Source of the DNA: Streptomyces sp. ST2-7A
GTDB lineage: Bacteria; Actinomycetota; Actinomycetes; Streptomycetales; Streptomycetaceae
Assembly: GCF_021390475.1 (NCBI RefSeq)
Contig: NZ_JAJUWS010000004.1
Span: 62,001 to 126,000 of the forward strand
DNA: 64,000 nt
Reading direction: 5' to 3'
Both the position numbers and the translations under genes were made by a program. Below, in pieces: positions 27,587-57,405 of this stretch. A model generated the notes under the pieces. That model was not told the DNA's origin. It ran no database searches and saw nothing but the letters and a program-made list of their open reading frames with translations. Every line of letters starts with the position of its first letter. Position 1 is the stretch's first letter.

Positions 27587-30067
27587 TCACGGCCGGGGCG
27601 GCAGGTCCTCCGGCACCAGCAGGGTCAGCTCCTCGGTGGTGGGCTCCGCCAACCGGGCGACCCGCCCCGCGTGCCGCTCCACCATCGCCTCGAAGGTCTG
27701 CCGGGCGGTGCGTCCGTTGCCGAAGCCCGGACCGCGCGGGATGGCGGCGAAGTACGTCATCAGCGCCGCTCCGGTCCCCCCGGCCAGGCCGTACTGCTGC
27801 TCGGCGGCCTGTTGCTCCACGATGCTCAGCAACTGACCCGGCGAGTAGTCGGTGAAGGTGATGGTGCGTGAGAAGCGGGACGCGACACCGGGGTTCACCG
27901 CCAGGAAGCGGTCCATCTCGGCGGTGTAGCCCGCGACGATGACCACCACCTCGTCACGGTGGTCCTCCATCAGCTTCACCAGGGTGTCGATGGCCTCCCG
28001 ACCGAAGTCCCGGCCCGCGTCCTCGGGGGAGAGGGCGTAGGCCTCGTCGATGAACAGGACCCCGCCGCGAGCCCGGTCGAACGCCTCCTGGGTGCGGATC
28101 GCGGTCGAGCCGATGTGCTCCCCGACCAGGTCGACCCGCGAGACCTCGACCAGATGTCCGCGCTCCAGCACGCCGAGGGAGGCCAGGATCTCGCCGTACA
28201 ACCGGGCCACGGTCGTCTTTCCCGTGCCGGGGGAGCCGGTGAACACCAGGTGCCGGCGGGCCGAGGCGGCCTTCAGCCCGGCCCGCTCCCGGCGTCGACC
28301 GACCTCGATCATGTCGATCAGCGCCCGCACCTCCCGCTTCACGGTCTCCAGGCCGATCAGGGACTCCAGTTCGCCCAGAACCTCCCCGGAATCCCGGATC
28401 ACCGGGTCGTCCGGGGTACCGGGCCCGTCGGGGTTCCCGGCGCGCGCCGGGTCCGGGGTGCCGGCGGGGCCGTTCCCGGCGGCGGCCGGGGTCCCGCCGC
28501 CTCCCCGGGGAGGCGGCAGCGCCTCGGGGGGCGGCATCAACAGACCACCGACCGCCTCTCCGCCGGCCGTGCCGGGGGCGAGGGCCGAAACCGTGTCCCG
28601 GGTTCGGCTCTCGTCGCTGCGGCACTCGCTCAACTCCGCCGAACCATCGGCCACGGCGTAACCCCCGCGCGCGCAGCGTTCGGTGCGGCACCGCCGCAGC
28701 ACCGCCCGGCTGCCCTCGGTGACGTGGAAGCCGTACCCCCGGGAATCCCCCACCCGACAGTTCTCGAAGTTCCCCCGCCCGGCGGAGACGTGGAACCCGG
28801 CCTCGGCCGATCCGGTGATCGAACAGTCGGAGACCGAGGGGTCGGCCTCCTTGCTGACGATCATCCCGGTGGTCGCCCCCCGCACGGTGCAGCCGGTCAC
28901 GGTGCCACCGCTGTCGGGGTCGCGGAACCAGACGGCGGTGCCCACGTCCTCGAAGCGGCAGGAGTCCAGTCGTACCGTCGCGCCGTCGCTCACCGAGACG
29001 GCCGAACCGCGCACGTCCCGGATCTCGCTGTCCACCACATCGGCCCGGGAACCGGAGTCCAGCACGAAGAGGGCGTCGGGGACGTCGTGCAGGTGGGATG
29101 CCTCCAGCACCACCGTCGCGCCGTCGCTCACCCACACCGCCGGATACTCGCCGGCGCCACCGGAGATCTCGCAGTGGTGCGCGTCCACATGGGTCCCCGG
29201 ATCCCACACCGACAGTCCGTTGCGGCCGAAGCCGGAGAGGGTCGAGCGCACCAGGGTCAACACGGAACGCGATCGCAGATCCACCCCGTTCTCCGGAATG
29301 TCCGAGATCGTGCCGTCGGCGAGGGTGAGCACCGCCCCACCCTCCATGGCGACGCCGTCACCGGTCGTGCCGAAGATCCGGCACTCCCCGAGGTGCGCGG
29401 TCGCCCGGTCGGCGAGCCGCACCCCCGGGCCGCGCACACCGGAGAACGAACACCTCGTGGCGTCCACCGCCGCCTCCGCGCCGGTGACCGACAGCCCCGC
29501 TCCCTCGGCGCGCTCGACGCGGCATCCCTCGAGCCGCACGTGGGCCGGGCCCTGCACCGCCACCCCCACCCGGCCGGCCGAGACGGCACACTCCTCGAAC
29601 AGGCCGCCCGCCTCCTCGGAAACCGAGATTCCCGTGCCGGCGGGATTGTCCACGGCGCATTCGCGAACGGTCGGGCGGGCCCCACCGCGCACCTCGATAC
29701 CGGCGGCCGAGGAGGTGTGGACCCGCAGTCGAACCAGTTCGGGACTGCTGTTCTCCACCAGCACGGCCGGGACGGCGACATCCTGGCCCTCCACACGCAA
29801 ACCGCTGACGGTGGCGGAGCCCCGCACGGTCAGCGGAACCCCATCGACCGGCGCGATGCGCGCGGGCGCGTCGCCGGGCTCCTCGGGCCCCCGGAGGGTG
29901 ACGGCGCGGGAGAGCACCACGTTCTCCCGGTACACGCCGGGGGAGAGGACCAACACGTCCCCGTCGGCGGCGACCGACAGCGCCTCGGCGACCGTGGGGT
30001 AGGAGGCGGTTCGCCGCCGCCAGCGGGAACTGCCGGTGTGCGTCACCTGTACGGAACCCTCTGCCAT
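27587..30067 (-). CDS. Right-handed beta-helix repeat protein fused to a CbxX/EccA/SpoVK-type AAA+ ATPase
   Basis: The 826-residue protein starts with a parallel beta-helix (about 20-505) built of repeating short turns such as [12 protein letters not shown] and [19 protein letters not shown], begun by the NosD-like [25 protein letters not shown] Pro/Gly linker (505-570) leads to the AAA+ module: [15 protein letters not shown], Walker [20 protein letters not shown] (near 605), Walker [14 protein letters not shown], sensor VVVIVAGY and the arginine region [10 protein letters not shown]. This AAA type occurs in Rubisco activase CbxX, type VII secretion EccA and SpoVK. The helix may bind a target that the ATPase remodels. 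It diverges from the encapsulin pair. Confidence 0.85.
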
Positions 30068-30433: not shown

Positions 30434-31852
30434 ATGGTGACCTCGGTCGAACCGACATCCGAGCAGCGGACGGACCGGGCCCGGCTCAGTCTGGCGACGG
30501 AAGCCGCTCGCACGCTGGCCTCCACCACCAAGACGCCCCCGCAGATGCAGGGCATCACCTCCCGGTGGCTGCTCAAGGTGCTTCCCTGGGTTCAGGTGTC
30601 CGGGGGCGCCTTCCGGGTGAACCGACGACTCGGGCACACGCTGGGCAACGGGCGGGTGGAATTCGTCTCCACCGGCGCGCAGGTGCGGGTCGTCCCCGCC
30701 GAACTCACCGAACTGCCCCTGTTGCAGGGGTACGAGGACCCGGACGTCCTGCGGGAGTTGGCCGATGGCTGCGTCCAGCGTGATTTCGCCGCCGGTGAGG
30801 TGATCTTCGAGGCGGGCTCCGCCGCCGACTCCGTCGTCCTGGTCGCGCACGGCAAGCTCAGCCGCCGCATCAGTGGCCTCTACGACTCCGAGGTCGACCT
30901 CGGAGTGGTCGCCGACGGGGACTTCGTCGACGACCGGGTACTGGCGGAGGGGGGATCGGGGGGGCTCGGTGAGCGGAGCTTCTCCCTCGTCTCCCTGACC
31001 GGCGGCACCGTGCTCACACTGCCCCGCGACCACTTCCGCACGGTGCTGGAGCGCTCCCCCTCGCTCGCGGCCCACCTGGGGCGGGCCGCCGACTACCACG
31101 CCGGCCGCACCGAGGCGGGTGAGGCGGAGATCGAGTTGGCCTCCGGTCACCGTGGGGAGCCGGAGTTGCCGGGCACCTTCGTCGACTACGACCTGGCCCC
31201 GCGCGAGTACGAGTTGAGCGTCGCGCAGACGGTGTTGCGGGTGCACACCCGGGTGGCCGATCTCTACAACGAGCCGATGAACCAGCTCCGGGAGCAGGTC
31301 CGGCTGACGGTGGAGGCGCTGCGCGAGCGCCAGGAGCACGAGATGATCAACAGCCGGGACTTCGGGTTGTTGCACAACGCGGACCTGCGGCAGCGCATCC
31401 ACACCCGCAGCGGTCCACCCACCCCGGACGACCTCGACGAACTCCTGGCCACGGTGTGGAAGAACCCCACCGTCATGCTGGCCCACCCGAAGGCGATCGC
31501 GGCGATCGGCCGGGAGTGCACCGCCCGCGGCATCCACCCCGGCACCGTCGAGTACGCCGGTCGGCCCGTGCCCTCCTGGCGCGGGGTGCCGCTGTTGCCC
31601 TGCAACAAGATCCCGGTGAGCGAGCGGGGCACCACCTCCGTGGTGGTGATGCGCACCGGTGAACAGGACCGCGGGGTGGTCGGCCTGCACCACACCGGAA
31701 TTCCGGACGAATACCAGCCCAGCCTGTCGGTCCGTTTCATGGGGATCAACGACAAGGCCGTCATGTCCTATCTGGTCAGCGCCTACTATTCACTGGCGGT
31801 CCTCGTCCCCGACGCGTTGGGAATTCTCGAGGATGTCGAAATCGGCCGCTGA
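30434..31852 (+). CDS. Family 2B encapsulin nanocompartment shell protein, copy 1
   Basis: The 472-residue HK97-fold shell protein has the family 2 N-terminal arm [21 protein letters not shown] (residues 24-44), a first piece of capsid fold (45-95), an inserted cyclic-nucleotide-binding-like domain (about 95-215), then the body [50 protein letters not shown] and the ending [18 protein letters not shown]. The insert marks subfamily 2B. Its phosphate-binding cassette lacks the usual Arg-Ala-Ala, so cAMP binding is doubtful. Family 2B shells enclose terpene cyclases, polyprenyl transferases or xylulose kinase; no such gene is adjacent. Copy 2 follows after 317 nt. Confidence 0.93.
31124..31443 (+). 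repeat. Near-identical tract shared by the two encapsulin genes (first copy)
   Basis: Matches 32821-33140. From 31124 to 31330 I count two differences in 207 bases, and from 31361 to 31443 none, with a diverged patch between. Another matching block starts at 31485 (with 33179), one difference in about 57 bases. Third codon positions are also conserved. Confidence 0.9.
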
Positions 31853-31946
31853 TCCCTTTTCCTTCCGCGCCGGAAACCCGGGCACGGGGTCGTGGGTCGC
31901 CGGGTGGGAGGCGGGCCGTCGAGTCGGGTTCTCGGCGCGGACCCCC

Positions 31947-31975
31947 GCCGGTCCGCCCCACCGGGGCGGACCGGC
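31947..31975. terminator. Hairpin between the encapsulin genes
   Basis: A perfect 13-bp stem (31947-31959 with 31963-31975, loop ACC), 95 nt after the stop of copy 1 and followed at once by the palindrome CCCCGGATCCGGGG (31977-31990). It could end or reduce transcription into copy 2. Confidence 0.65.
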
Positions 31976-32090
31976 TCCCCGGATCCGGGGCGGCCCGCCC
32001 GAACCCTCCCGCGCCATGGTCCCGGGGTCCCCATCCGCCCCGGCTCCGCTACCCGGTGCGGCGGGGGCCCGTTCCCACGCCCGCACCCGC

Positions 32091-32146
32091 TCACGTGCGT
32101 TTCCTCATGCGCGCCCGCTCACACGCGTTTTCCCATGCGCGCTTCC
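32091..32146 (+). repeat. Two 28-bp imperfect direct repeats upstream of encapsulin 2
   Basis: Units at 32091-32118 and 32119-32146, both beginning TCAC and containing CATGCGCGC. They end 23 bases before the ATG of copy 2 and might be a promoter-proximal binding site. The function is unknown. Confidence 0.55.
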
Positions 32147-32169
32147 TCATGAAAGGCATCTCGTATCCC

Positions 32170-33540
32170 ATGACCCAGCCCCTGCCGAGCAGCCTGGAGA
32201 CCACGGCCGCCCGGAATCTGGCGACCACGACCAAGACGCCCCCACAGATGCAGGGGATCTCCTCCCGGTGGTTGCCCCGACTGTTGCCCTGGGTCGACGT
32301 GCGCGGCGGAACCTACCGGGTCAACCGGCGATTGACCCATACCGTGGGCAACGGGCGGGTGGAGTTCGTCGTCTCCGGCGCGCAGGTGCGGGTCATTCCG
32401 GCCCAACTGACCGAACTGCCACCGCTGTCCGGCTTCCCCGACGGCGAGGAACTGCGCGCGCTGGCCGACCGTTGCGAACAGCGCGAGTACGCGGCGGGCG
32501 AGGACCTGGCCGTGGCCGGGGCGCCGATCACCGAGGTTCTGCTCATCGCCCACGGGAAGGTTCGACGTCTGCTGCCCGGTCCCTACGAGGGAGCCGCCGA
32601 ACTCGAGACGCTCGCCGACGGGGACCACGCCGGGGAGGGTGCCATGGTCGGCACCGATCCCGGCACCTGGCGCACGGGCCTGCGTGCCGCGACCCGCTGC
32701 ACCGTGTTGGCGCTCCCGCTGGAGGCCGTTCGACGAGTCGGCGAGGAGTTCCCGACCCTCCGCTCACACCTGGACGCCTTCACCGGGCGGGCGCTGCCCC
32801 GGCAGAACCGGCGGGGTGAGGCGGAGATCGAGTTGGCCTCCGGTCACCGTGGGGAGCCGGAGTTGCCGGGCACCTTCGTCGACTACGACCCGGCGCCGCG
32901 CGAGTACGAGTTGAGCGTCGCGCAGACGGTGTTGCGGGTGCACACCCGGGTGGCCGATCTCTACAACGAGCCGATGAACCAGCTCCGGGAGCAGGTCCGG
33001 CTGACGGTGGAGGCGCTGCGCGAGCGCGAGGAACACGAATTGATGAACAATCGCGAGTTCGGGTTGTTGCACAACGCGGACCTGCGGCAGCGCATCCACA
33101 CCCGCAGCGGTCCACCCACCCCGGACGACCTCGACGAACTGATCTCGCGCCGCCGCGGAACCCGCTACCTGTTCGCCCACCCGAGGGCGATCGCGGCGAT
33201 CGGCCGGGAGTGCACCGCCCGCGGCATCCACCCCGAACCCACCGAGGTCGCGGGGGTCATGGTCCGCTCCTGGCGGGGTATCCCGTTGTTGCCCTGCAAC
33301 AAGATCCCGATCTCGGCCGCCAACACCACCAGGGTGGTGGCGATGCGCACCGGGGAGGACGACCAGGGTGTCGTCGGCCTGCGCTGCGAAGGCATTCCCG
33401 ACGAGGTCGAGCCCTCGCTCAATGTCCGCTTCATGGGCATCGACGACCGCGCCGTGATGTCCTATCTGGTCAGCCTCTACCACTCGGTCGCCGTGCTGGT
33501 CCCCGATGCCCTCGGGATCCTGGAGGACGTCGAGATCTGA
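32170..33540 (+). CDS. Family 2B encapsulin nanocompartment shell protein, copy 2
   Basis: The paralogous shell protein, 456 residues, has the same order: arm [17 protein letters not shown] (about 18-34), inserted cyclic-nucleotide-binding-like domain (about 85-200), then the capsid body with [20 protein letters not shown] and the ending [16 protein letters not shown]. The inserted domain has diverged strongly from copy 1, and the cassette ([13 protein letters not shown]) again lacks a standard cAMP site. Two shell types could make a mixed capsid. ATG at 32170 chosen, GAAAGG 13 nt before it; an in-frame ATG at 32149 would add MKGISYP. A convergent terminator follows at 33644. Confidence 0.93.
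32821..33140 (+). repeat. Near-identical tract shared by the two encapsulin genes (second copy)
   Basis: Partner of 31124-31443, offset 1697 bases, in the shell core region. The flanking cyclic-nucleotide-like domain and C-terminal variable loop are much less alike. Confidence 0.9.
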
Positions 33541-33769: not shown

Positions 33770-34783
33770 TCAGTACCCCCCGGCGGGGCGACCGTACGAC
33801 TGGTAGCCGGGATCCGGGTACGGCTGTCGTCCGTCCGCCGGACGCATCTGCTGGGGGATGGGCGCCGGTTGACCGGGTTGGGGACGGTAGCCCCGGGAGG
33901 GTGGCGGAACCTGCCCCACCATCGGCTGGGGGACCGACGAGGGGCCGGACCAGGCCGGGCGTCCACCGGCCGGAACCCCCGCCGGCACGTGGTGCACGGC
34001 CGGTCCGCCGGTCCGTCCGGCGGAGGGGCCGGCGGGCAGTGCGGGCAGGGCCGCCGGGAGAGCCGGGAGGCCGGGCATCGCCGGTGCGGCGGGTTCCCAG
34101 GCGGAGGGCACGCGGATCGGCGCGATCTGCGGAGTGCCCCGTTCGGCCACCAGGCTGTCGTATATCGGGGTGTCCGCGAAGGGCGTCCCGATGGTTGAGG
34201 AGTACGACGAGGAGGAGTACCCCGAGCCATGGGACCCGGAGGAGTACGAACCCGACGAGGAGTACGAACCCGACGAGCCGGCCGAGGAGTACGAGGAGGG
34301 GGACCCCCCGTACGAGGGCGAGGGACTCCCGGAACCCGGCGTCGGGTACGACCCGTACGCGGGAGTCGACCCGGAAGAACCGTTGGCGGGATACGAGGAG
34401 GGCGCCGGGGCGTACCCCGTTCCGTTGACGCCGTTGCCCCCCCGGGGTCCTCCGGGGGGAGCCGGGTGGGACACCGGGGTGGAATGAGATGCCCGGGAGG
34501 GGGCAGGAGCGGCCGGGGACACCGGGGCGGTGTTGCCCCACCCATCGGGGGAACCCCAGGCGCCGGAGGAGGCGGAGGTCGGAGCGGAGGTGCCGAAGTG
34601 CGTCGGTGCACCGGTGCGACCGGAGCCGTTCGCGAAGTTGCTCTGATGACCGTTCGGGGCGCCGGACTGCACGGGACGCGTCGGCTGATGATGACCCGGA
34701 GGGGTAGGCGGCGACGGGTACGTCGCGTACATCGGGGACCCGTGGGGCGGGTCGCCGGGGTGAGGCGGGTGCGGGGAGGTCAT
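33770..34783 (-). CDS. DUF6643 family protein, Pro/Gly/Ser/Tyr-rich and mostly disordered
   Basis: The 337-residue protein is low-complexity for most of its length: a Pro/His/Gly-rich head, a Ser/Tyr/Gly repeat region (about 130-205, e.g. SSGSYSSSGSYSSGS), then a short conserved core TPIYDSLVAERGTPQIAPIR (about 209-228), and a Pro/Leu/Ala-rich tail. I recognise the core as DUF6643, of unknown function. There is no signal peptide or membrane segment. It is convergent with encapsulin 2. Family 2 cargo proteins use disordered Pro/Gly-rich arms for loading, so an encapsulin-associated role is conceivable, but only position suggests it. Confidence 0.75.
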   Translation of the reverse strand: MTSPHPPHPGDPPHGSPMYATYPSPPTPPGHHQPTRPVQSGAPNGHQSNFANGSGRTGAPTHFGTSAPTSASSGAWGSPDGWGNTAPVSPAAPAPSRASHSTPVSHPAPPGGPRGGNGVNGTGYAPAPSSYPANGSSGSTPAYGSYPTPGSGSPSPSYGGSPSSYSSAGSSGSYSSSGSYSSGSHGSGYSSSSYSSTIGTPFADTPIYDSLVAERGTPQIAPIRVPSAWEPAAPAMPGLPALPAALPALPAGPSAGRTGGPAVHHVPAGVPAGGRPAWSGPSSVPQPMVGQVPPPSRGYRPQPGQPAPIPQQMRPADGRQPYPDPGYQSYGRPAGGY

Positions 34784-56952: not shown

Positions 56953-57405
56953 TCACCATCCCGCGGTGCGCGGGGCGTAGAGGTCCAGGGCGCGGCTCCG
57001 GGCCAGACGCAGGCGGTTGGCCAGGATCTCGGCGAACAGCCGCATCAGGGTGTATCCGAAGGCCGGGTCGTGATCGGACAACTCGCGGACCTCGGTGCCC
57101 AGGAACTCGTGGGCCCGCACCGGACTGACGGTCTCGGCCCCGAAGTCCCACTCGTAGGGAGGGAAGAGCCAGGACCATCCCAGCAGGTCGCCCGGGTCCA
57201 GGACCGCCACGGAACCGGTGCGTTCCCCCGGAAGGTGCAGGTCCAGGGTGACCGAGCCCGAGCGGAGCACCCAGAAACGGTCGGCCCGACCCCGTTCCTC
57301 GAAGATCCGGTGTCCCCGGGGGAAGGAGACCTCCCGGCTCACCGACATGAGACGTTCGCGGTATTCCGGGGACAGGGATTTCAGCAACTGTTTGGGTGCG
57401 GGCAT
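56953..57405 (-). CDS. Stand-alone cyclic-nucleotide-binding-fold protein
   Basis: The 150-residue protein is a single Crp-type beta-roll: VSFPRGHRIFEERGRADRFWVL, GSVTLDLHL, VAVLDPGDLLGWSWLF and VRAHEFLGTEVREL, followed by a short helical tail with no helix-turn-helix. The phosphate cassette GDLLGWSWLFPPYEWDF lacks the usual E and R residues, so ligand binding is unsure. ATG 57405 has GAGGGG 5 nt upstream. It is divergent from the PAS-GAF-PP2C gene and could be its redox or ligand sensor, which is inference. Confidence 0.85.
   Translation of the reverse strand: MPAPKQLLKSLSPEYRERLMSVSREVSFPRGHRIFEERGRADRFWVLRSGSVTLDLHLPGERTGSVAVLDPGDLLGWSWLFPPYEWDFGAETVSPVRAHEFLGTEVRELSDHDPAFGYTLMRLFAEILANRLRLARSRALDLYAPRTAGW

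Follow-up and report, generated by a model that had tools for sequence, protein, structure and literature searches.

Two-component operons encoding a pair of shell proteins, Enc1 and Enc2, make up 21% of Family 2B encapsulin systems, with 503 known, according to the accessible text of PMC12407261. The same text distinguishes the two proteins by diagnostic motif 1 (TVWK in Enc1, RRRK in Enc2), gives no known native cargo as of 2025 for systems of the xylulose kinase (XK) type, recognizes a class called "Other" without obvious cargo, and states that the cyclic nucleotide monophosphate (cNMP)-binding-like domains of these shells bind no cyclic nucleotide. In the geosmin synthase (GS)-like Family 2 operons described in the accessible text of PMC8346489, the cyclase carries the sequence GPTGLGTSAAR between its two cyclase domains and again at its C terminus, and this sequence was suggested there to target the cargo. 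Here we describe an Enc1/Enc2 pair from Streptomyces sp. ST2-7A (genome of 6.18 Mb in 90 contigs) and suggest that its cargo is a geosmin synthase encoded on another contig. The pair lies in a 64,000-nucleotide stretch, positions 62001-126000 of contig C4 (NZ_JAJUWS010000004.1), referred to below as the window; relatives given by species name are Streptomyces.

Domain content, PDB matches and diagnostic motif 1 confirm the two predicted window proteins as an Enc1/Enc2 pair of Family 2B shells, upholding a sequence-only reading of this DNA that had called them tandem paralogues. The SrpI-like HK97 domain PF19307 scores 450 bits in Enc1 (residues 224-472) and 440 bits in Enc2 (residues 210-456) against a cut-off of 22.8, and no other protein of the genome matches PF19307. 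It is preceded by the cNMP-binding-like domain PF00027 at residues 116-207 and 105-190, respectively (39.3 and 35.9 bits; cut-off, 27.5). The top PDB matches are 9bje for Enc1 (618 bits) and 9bix for Enc2 (626 bits). Both entries are labeled in the PDB table only as "Crp/Fnr family transcriptional regulator," and we interpret them as the Enc1 and Enc2 of S. lydicus, respectively, because the aligned sequences bear the TVWK and RRRK motifs of PMC12407261. In the window, motif 1 reads TVWK in Enc1 (31451-31462) and RRRG in Enc2 (33148-33159), compared with RRRK in S. lydicus Enc2. The window thus resembles the S. lydicus system (Sl-Enc1/Sl-Enc2) in having two adjacent cNMP-domain shells with a TVWK and an RRR-type motif, but it has no nearby xylulose kinase gene, its neighborhood is different, and diagnostic motif 2 of Enc1, as aligned to 9bje, departs from AVDFHGHSLP. 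Given the 503 published operons and the published class without obvious cargo, the arrangement in the window is therefore of a known kind.

The two genes are adjacent, well within 10 kb of each other (C4 92434-95540 in contig coordinates), and their products are identical at 310 of 450 aligned residues. Gene starts are those of a simple gene caller. Enc1 starts at 30434, and the start of Enc2 is uncertain (ATG at 32149 or 32170, in an open reading frame that opens at GTG 32056) because of a short CACGCGTTTTCCCATGCGC-like repeat, in about three copies at 32080-32160, just 5' of the probable start codon. The genes share a 327-bp tract with only 11 mismatches, the remainder being 65% identical; this tract, which stops just before diagnostic motif 1, is likely to reflect gene conversion. 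A cyclic nucleotide binding cassette is expected to contain an Arg residue. This Arg is missing in most of the shells compared, and window Enc2 has an odd W-R-T. Together with the lack of cyclic nucleotide binding stated in the accessible text of PMC12407261, this led us to reject cyclic nucleotide sensing by the shells.

In a FastTree phylogeny of 205 shells, the two window proteins fall in different clades, Enc1 grouping with the Enc1s of GS/prenyltransferase (PT)-type systems and Enc2 with their Enc2s (support for the Enc2 placement, 83). In an IQ-TREE phylogeny of 58 shells, window Enc1 lies among two-component Enc1s, the Enc2s of Streptomyces pairs (window type, XK type as in S. lydicus, and S. 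cinnamoneus type) are joined at 94/87, and single shells of the PT type and of the 2-methylisoborneol synthase (2-MIBS) type are set apart at 100/99. The end branches of the window shells are long (0.34-0.45). Judged from these trees, the pair can safely be assigned to the two-component stock rather than to the single-shell stock of Streptomyces. The S. griseus 2-MIB synthase encapsulin, which we take to be PDB 9bhu, is also a Family 2B shell, and its cargo type shares the GPTGLGT motif, but it is a single shell beside a 2-MIBS-like cyclase and falls in the PT-type single-shell clade. A PF19086 family search found no 2-MIBS gene in the ST2-7A genome.

Whole-genome Pfam searches for known cargo families found none within 39 kb of the window pair, in agreement with the sequence-only reading, which had reported the usual Family 2B cargo enzymes absent from at least 30 kb on each side. 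There is no terpene cyclase (PF19086) on contig C4; the nearest prenyltransferase (PF00348) is at C4:202704, about 107 kb downstream; the nearest FGGY kinase (PF00370) ends about 39.9 kb upstream, with a xylB-like member about 77 kb upstream; and none of the 12 aminotransferase V/cysteine desulfurase proteins (PF00266) is encoded on C4. With no xylulose kinase gene near the pair, the locus is not an XK-type operon, and with no terpene cyclase, prenyltransferase or cysteine desulfurase gene there, it is not of the type defined by those three. Cysteine desulfurase was also considered as a cargo encoded elsewhere and rejected, as no printed start among the 12 PF00266 proteins gave a desulfurase-like protein a long N-terminal arm.

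The absence of a local cargo gene extends to the relatives. Of 80 named loci encoding close relatives of Enc1, 41 share with the window a gene for a beta-helix/AAA+ protein next to the shells. No known cargo family was present in the fetched flanks of any of these 41 loci (full 10-kb flanks in 28), so that the absence characterizes the lineage rather than this genome alone. The pair stands side by side in 40 of the 41, and the remaining locus stops at a contig edge; in G584 (L046), one shell is visible where the contig ends. A further 10 tandem loci, not of the beta-helix/AAA+ kind, likewise had no known cargo family nearby.

The genome contains a single terpene cyclase gene (PF19086), on contig C7. 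We call its product a putative geosmin synthase because it has two cyclase domains and resembles the two-domain cyclases encoded beside shells. Near-consensus copies of the published motif occur in the linker between the cyclase domains (RPAGLGTSAAD) and near the C terminus (FPLGLGTSAGR). A genome-wide DNA search for G-L-G-T-S-A, allowing some looser codons, returned five sites, of which only two encode the Ser, both of them in the synthase; the backward-pattern control returned 22 sites. In other genomes, the shell-adjacent proteins that carry the motif comprise 37 resembling geosmin synthase and 12 others of 412-520 amino acids (aa), three of which are labeled terpene cyclase and the rest of which are probably 2-MIBS-like, judging by size and place. 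The ST2-7A system resembles the GS-like systems in the accessible text of PMC8346489, and the geoA-cnb-cnb arrangement of PMC7251104, in having Family 2B shells, often two, and a synthase with two GLGTSAAR-type motifs, but in those systems shells and synthase adjoin, whereas here they are on different contigs. The sequence-only reading had proposed that the cargo is either encoded elsewhere or of a new kind. The first alternative gains support from the motif-bearing synthase; the second does not, as a canonical cargo gene with a matching motif is present elsewhere in the genome, an observation that the sequence-only reading had itself named as refuting. Its expectation of an N-terminal targeting arm was wrong in detail, the synthase motifs lying between the domains and in the C-terminal tail.

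Shells and synthase also occur together across the class. In an even sample of 394 Actinomycetes genomes from 137 genera, PF19307 was found in 116 genomes and geosmin synthase in 92, and all 92 synthase-bearing genomes also had a PF19307 shell, compared with 27 expected if relatedness is ignored. Counted by genus, again ignoring relatedness, all 20 synthase-bearing genera have shells, which occur in 28 of the 137. No more than 10 kb separates the synthase from a listed shell in at least 38 of the 92 genomes but, among the matches listed, in only 1 of 40 Streptomyces genomes. In that one (G465, locus L203), the synthase is next to a shell that groups with the 2-MIBS-type single shells. Among the 80 named loci, the synthase is beside the shells in 20, all outside Streptomyces, and the two are neighbors in Nonomuraea, Archangium, Saccharopolyspora and others. 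Of 49 searched genomes holding named pair loci, 48 contain a geosmin synthase. Published clusters point in the same direction. In cyanobacteria and deltaproteobacteria, two "cnb" genes (471 and 469 aa) come after geoA (PMC7251104); we read these as shell genes from their size and annotation. Encapsulins are reported in all myxobacterial geosmin clusters (PMC12224551).

Within Streptomyces, retention of the motif appears to follow the pair. We scored the linker and tail of 52 distinct synthases from pair-bearing genomes (9 from the class sample and 48 of the 49 named genomes, less 5 duplicates) and of synthases from 30 genomes with no visible tandem pair; G465, whose synthase gene adjoins a single shell gene, was excluded. 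Five synthase reads end at a locus or contig edge (G497, G520, G586, G588 and G589), of which G520 was scored as a motif-less single. Among 52 non-Streptomyces synthases, 20 lay outside motif scoring, including those of G216, G360 and G504, which had no usable gene call. A loose form of the motif, in which any of LIVMP was accepted, often matched linkers by chance (25 of 31 single rows), and stricter forms, GLGT (strict) and P.G[LIP]GT (relaxed), were therefore used. In linker or tail, the strict form is present in 48 of 52 pair-bearing and 10 of 30 pair-less genomes, and the relaxed form in 52 of 52 and 13 of 30; in the tail alone, the strict counts are 44 of 52 and 5 of 30. Many pair-less synthases end in a short motif-less tail. 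The tails of pair-bearing genomes are hypervariable, at 26-140 aa (n = 50), and conservation is concentrated around the motif, with P at -2 in 46 of 50, A at +5 in 44 of 50 and R at +7 in 47 of 49. The P and R columns, neither of which was used for anchoring, carry 3.7-3.8 bits, compared with about 0.6-1.3 bits for most flanking columns. In the S. cinnamoneus/roseoverticillatus group, pairs (L083-L095 and L105) have no known cargo family nearby, and the synthases examined keep the motif.

What was observed directly is the shell pair, the motifs, which are nearly unique in the genome, the co-occurrence of shells and synthase across genomes, and the motif retention. These observations make geosmin synthase, encoded in trans, the best candidate for the cargo of the window pair and the simplest account of it, a reading to which we assign a probability of roughly 0.6 and in which loading is predicted from the motifs. 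By analogy with the S. lydicus study, Enc1 and Enc2 would co-assemble. The PxGLGTSAAR-type motifs in the linker and C-terminal tail of the synthase would then bind the inner face of the shell and draw the enzyme in, and farnesyl diphosphate would be converted to germacradienol and geosmin inside. Shell and cargo genes, still neighbors in Nonomuraea, Archangium and others, would have become unlinked in Streptomyces. Both physical loading and compartmented synthesis are predictions from sequence. In the literature searched, which takes in a minority of subscription papers, we found no proposal linking geosmin synthase in trans to these shells. More tentatively, and at somewhat less than even odds, Streptomyces two-component encapsulins in general, including those of the XK type and of "Other," may be geosmin compartments with unlinked cargo, lineages that lose the pair letting the motif decay.

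Several observations weigh against assigning geosmin synthase to these shells. The 92 of 92 co-occurrence may include a few non-2B shells because PF19307 also spans Family 2A and the lower-scoring shells of three genomes (G216, G292 and G479) were not inspected, and the co-occurrence figures take in related genomes without correction. PF19307 is present in 196 of 199 Streptomyces genomes, so that pair-less members nearly all have other Family 2 shells and co-occurrence within the genus therefore says little. In the draft genome of S. durbertensis (G592, L054), the pair is present and no synthase was found, which may represent either a gap in the draft or a counterexample. The two trees disagree on the deep placement of Enc2, and the deep forks are weak. 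Between 10 and 13 of the 30 pair-less Streptomyces genomes, depending on the motif form, still keep the motif. Finally, the synthase tree carries three state changes for the pair and five for the loose form of the tail motif, the contrast within Streptomyces amounts to only two or three independent changes, and an independent-pairs test of motif against pair, with two or three pairs, has no power. With so few changes, the motif contrast is suggestive of a tie between motif and pair rather than independent proof of one.

Alternatively, the shells may chiefly load a prenyl diphosphate synthase encoded in trans, either by itself or accompanied by geosmin synthase, on the model of GS/PT neighborhoods. 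Shell-adjacent prenyltransferases are common in the relatives, and in their best matches two of the genome's own enzymes are 52-60% identical to such proteins (L006 against L097 and L264; L007 against L225 and L235, 47-56%). Against this, the motif is present in none of 67 shell-adjacent prenyltransferases, which therefore offer no tag for recognition; of the genome's own four (L005-L008), the three with a resolved start (L006-L008) have at most short extra N termini, of about 30-40 aa by eye in two and absent from the third, compared with 50-100 aa in the literature. Farnesyl and geranylgeranyl diphosphate synthases are needed in any case. We consider this alternative unlikely.

Of similarly low probability is an unrelated or new protein, encoded elsewhere and without a recognizable tag. 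Such a cargo would fit the lack of known cargo families at all 41 loci of the same synteny and the "Other" class in the accessible text of PMC12407261, and the links between the shells and their neighbors are otherwise explained by synteny. It is countered by the presence here of a tagged cargo of a published type, the tag of which persists in pair-bearing genomes.

Xylulose kinase, as proposed for S. lydicus-type pairs, could be the cargo if its gene had moved away. In the IQ-TREE phylogeny, window Enc2 falls in the two-component lineage of S. lydicus Enc1/Enc2 (94/87), the xylB-like gene is on the same contig, and in one Streptomyces genome (G440, L199) a xylulose kinase gene is directly upstream of the pair. 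However, such a gene is near only 2 of the 80 named loci, and G440 and the S. buecherae genome (L090), two genomes with this gene close to the pair, encode a tagged geosmin synthase as well, making this a very improbable reading. That the pair is a decaying or empty, functionless remnant, as the absent local cargo gene, the long end branches and the conversion tract might suggest, is equally hard to credit against two open, full-length frames, persistent diagnostic differences and two genes that have stayed adjacent at 40 of 41 loci.

The features discussed are listed in Table 1. Pfam matches agree with the sequence-only reading as to the identity of the two genes flanking the pair, a beta-helix/AAA+ gene and a DUF6643 gene; a role for them in the shell system did not hold up, as both occur in pair-less Streptomyces. 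A full-length orthologue of the beta-helix/AAA+ protein (65-71% identity) was found in all 39 other Streptomyces genomes searched (40 of 40 with ST2-7A itself), 31 of which are pair-less. Loci were compared from 25 of these 31, and in 24 of the 25 a w20 gene, the beta-helix/AAA+ gene and a 201-aa-type gene lie side by side without shells. A function as shell remodeler was therefore rejected, this being a core gene that keeps its neighbors whether or not the pair is present. DUF6643 was rejected as cargo, since its gene adjoins a TerD-like gene in relatives (L043, L056 and L060) and in one pair-less genome (G431, L381) both are beside the beta-helix/AAA+ gene. We judge the two flanking genes to be bystanders from a conserved region adjoining the pair.

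Table 1. Features in and around the shell pair (window coordinates).
Feature	Position	Strand	Basis or remark
Enc1, Family 2B shell protein, 472 aa	30434..31852	+	Pfam, PDB match 9bje, TVWK motif
Enc2, Family 2B shell protein, 456 aa	32170..33540	+	Pfam, PDB match 9bix, RRRG motif
Near-identical tract, Enc1 vs Enc2	31117..31443 vs 32814..33140	+	Pairwise alignment
Beta-helix + AAA + AAA_lid_6 protein	27587..30067	-	Pfam; divergent neighbor
DUF6643 protein	33770..34783	-	Pfam; convergent neighbor

Two further genes were noted around these shells. A phosphoketolase-like gene, labeled from reading its sequence, is convergent to Enc2 in many relatives (L056, L050, L059 and other S. albus-group loci); it is not beside the window pair and its product has no obvious extra terminus, and it was set aside. 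A small Crp-like protein of 150 aa is encoded at 56953-57405, 23 kb from the window pair, and orthologues occur in 6 of the 80 loci (L055, L065, L066, L068, L073 and L077), in several of which the gene immediately follows the two shell genes.

If the assignment of geosmin synthase is right, the usual practice of reading encapsulin cargo off the operon would have missed a cargo at an unlinked locus. Many "cargo-less" shells might then be assignable through motif and co-occurrence, by way of a short tag retained only in the presence of the shell. Two-component shells, including those of the XK type, would gain a concrete and testable cargo candidate in Streptomyces, and, for a set of species that can be defined, the synthesis of geosmin, an emblem of the genus, would be placed inside a protein compartment.
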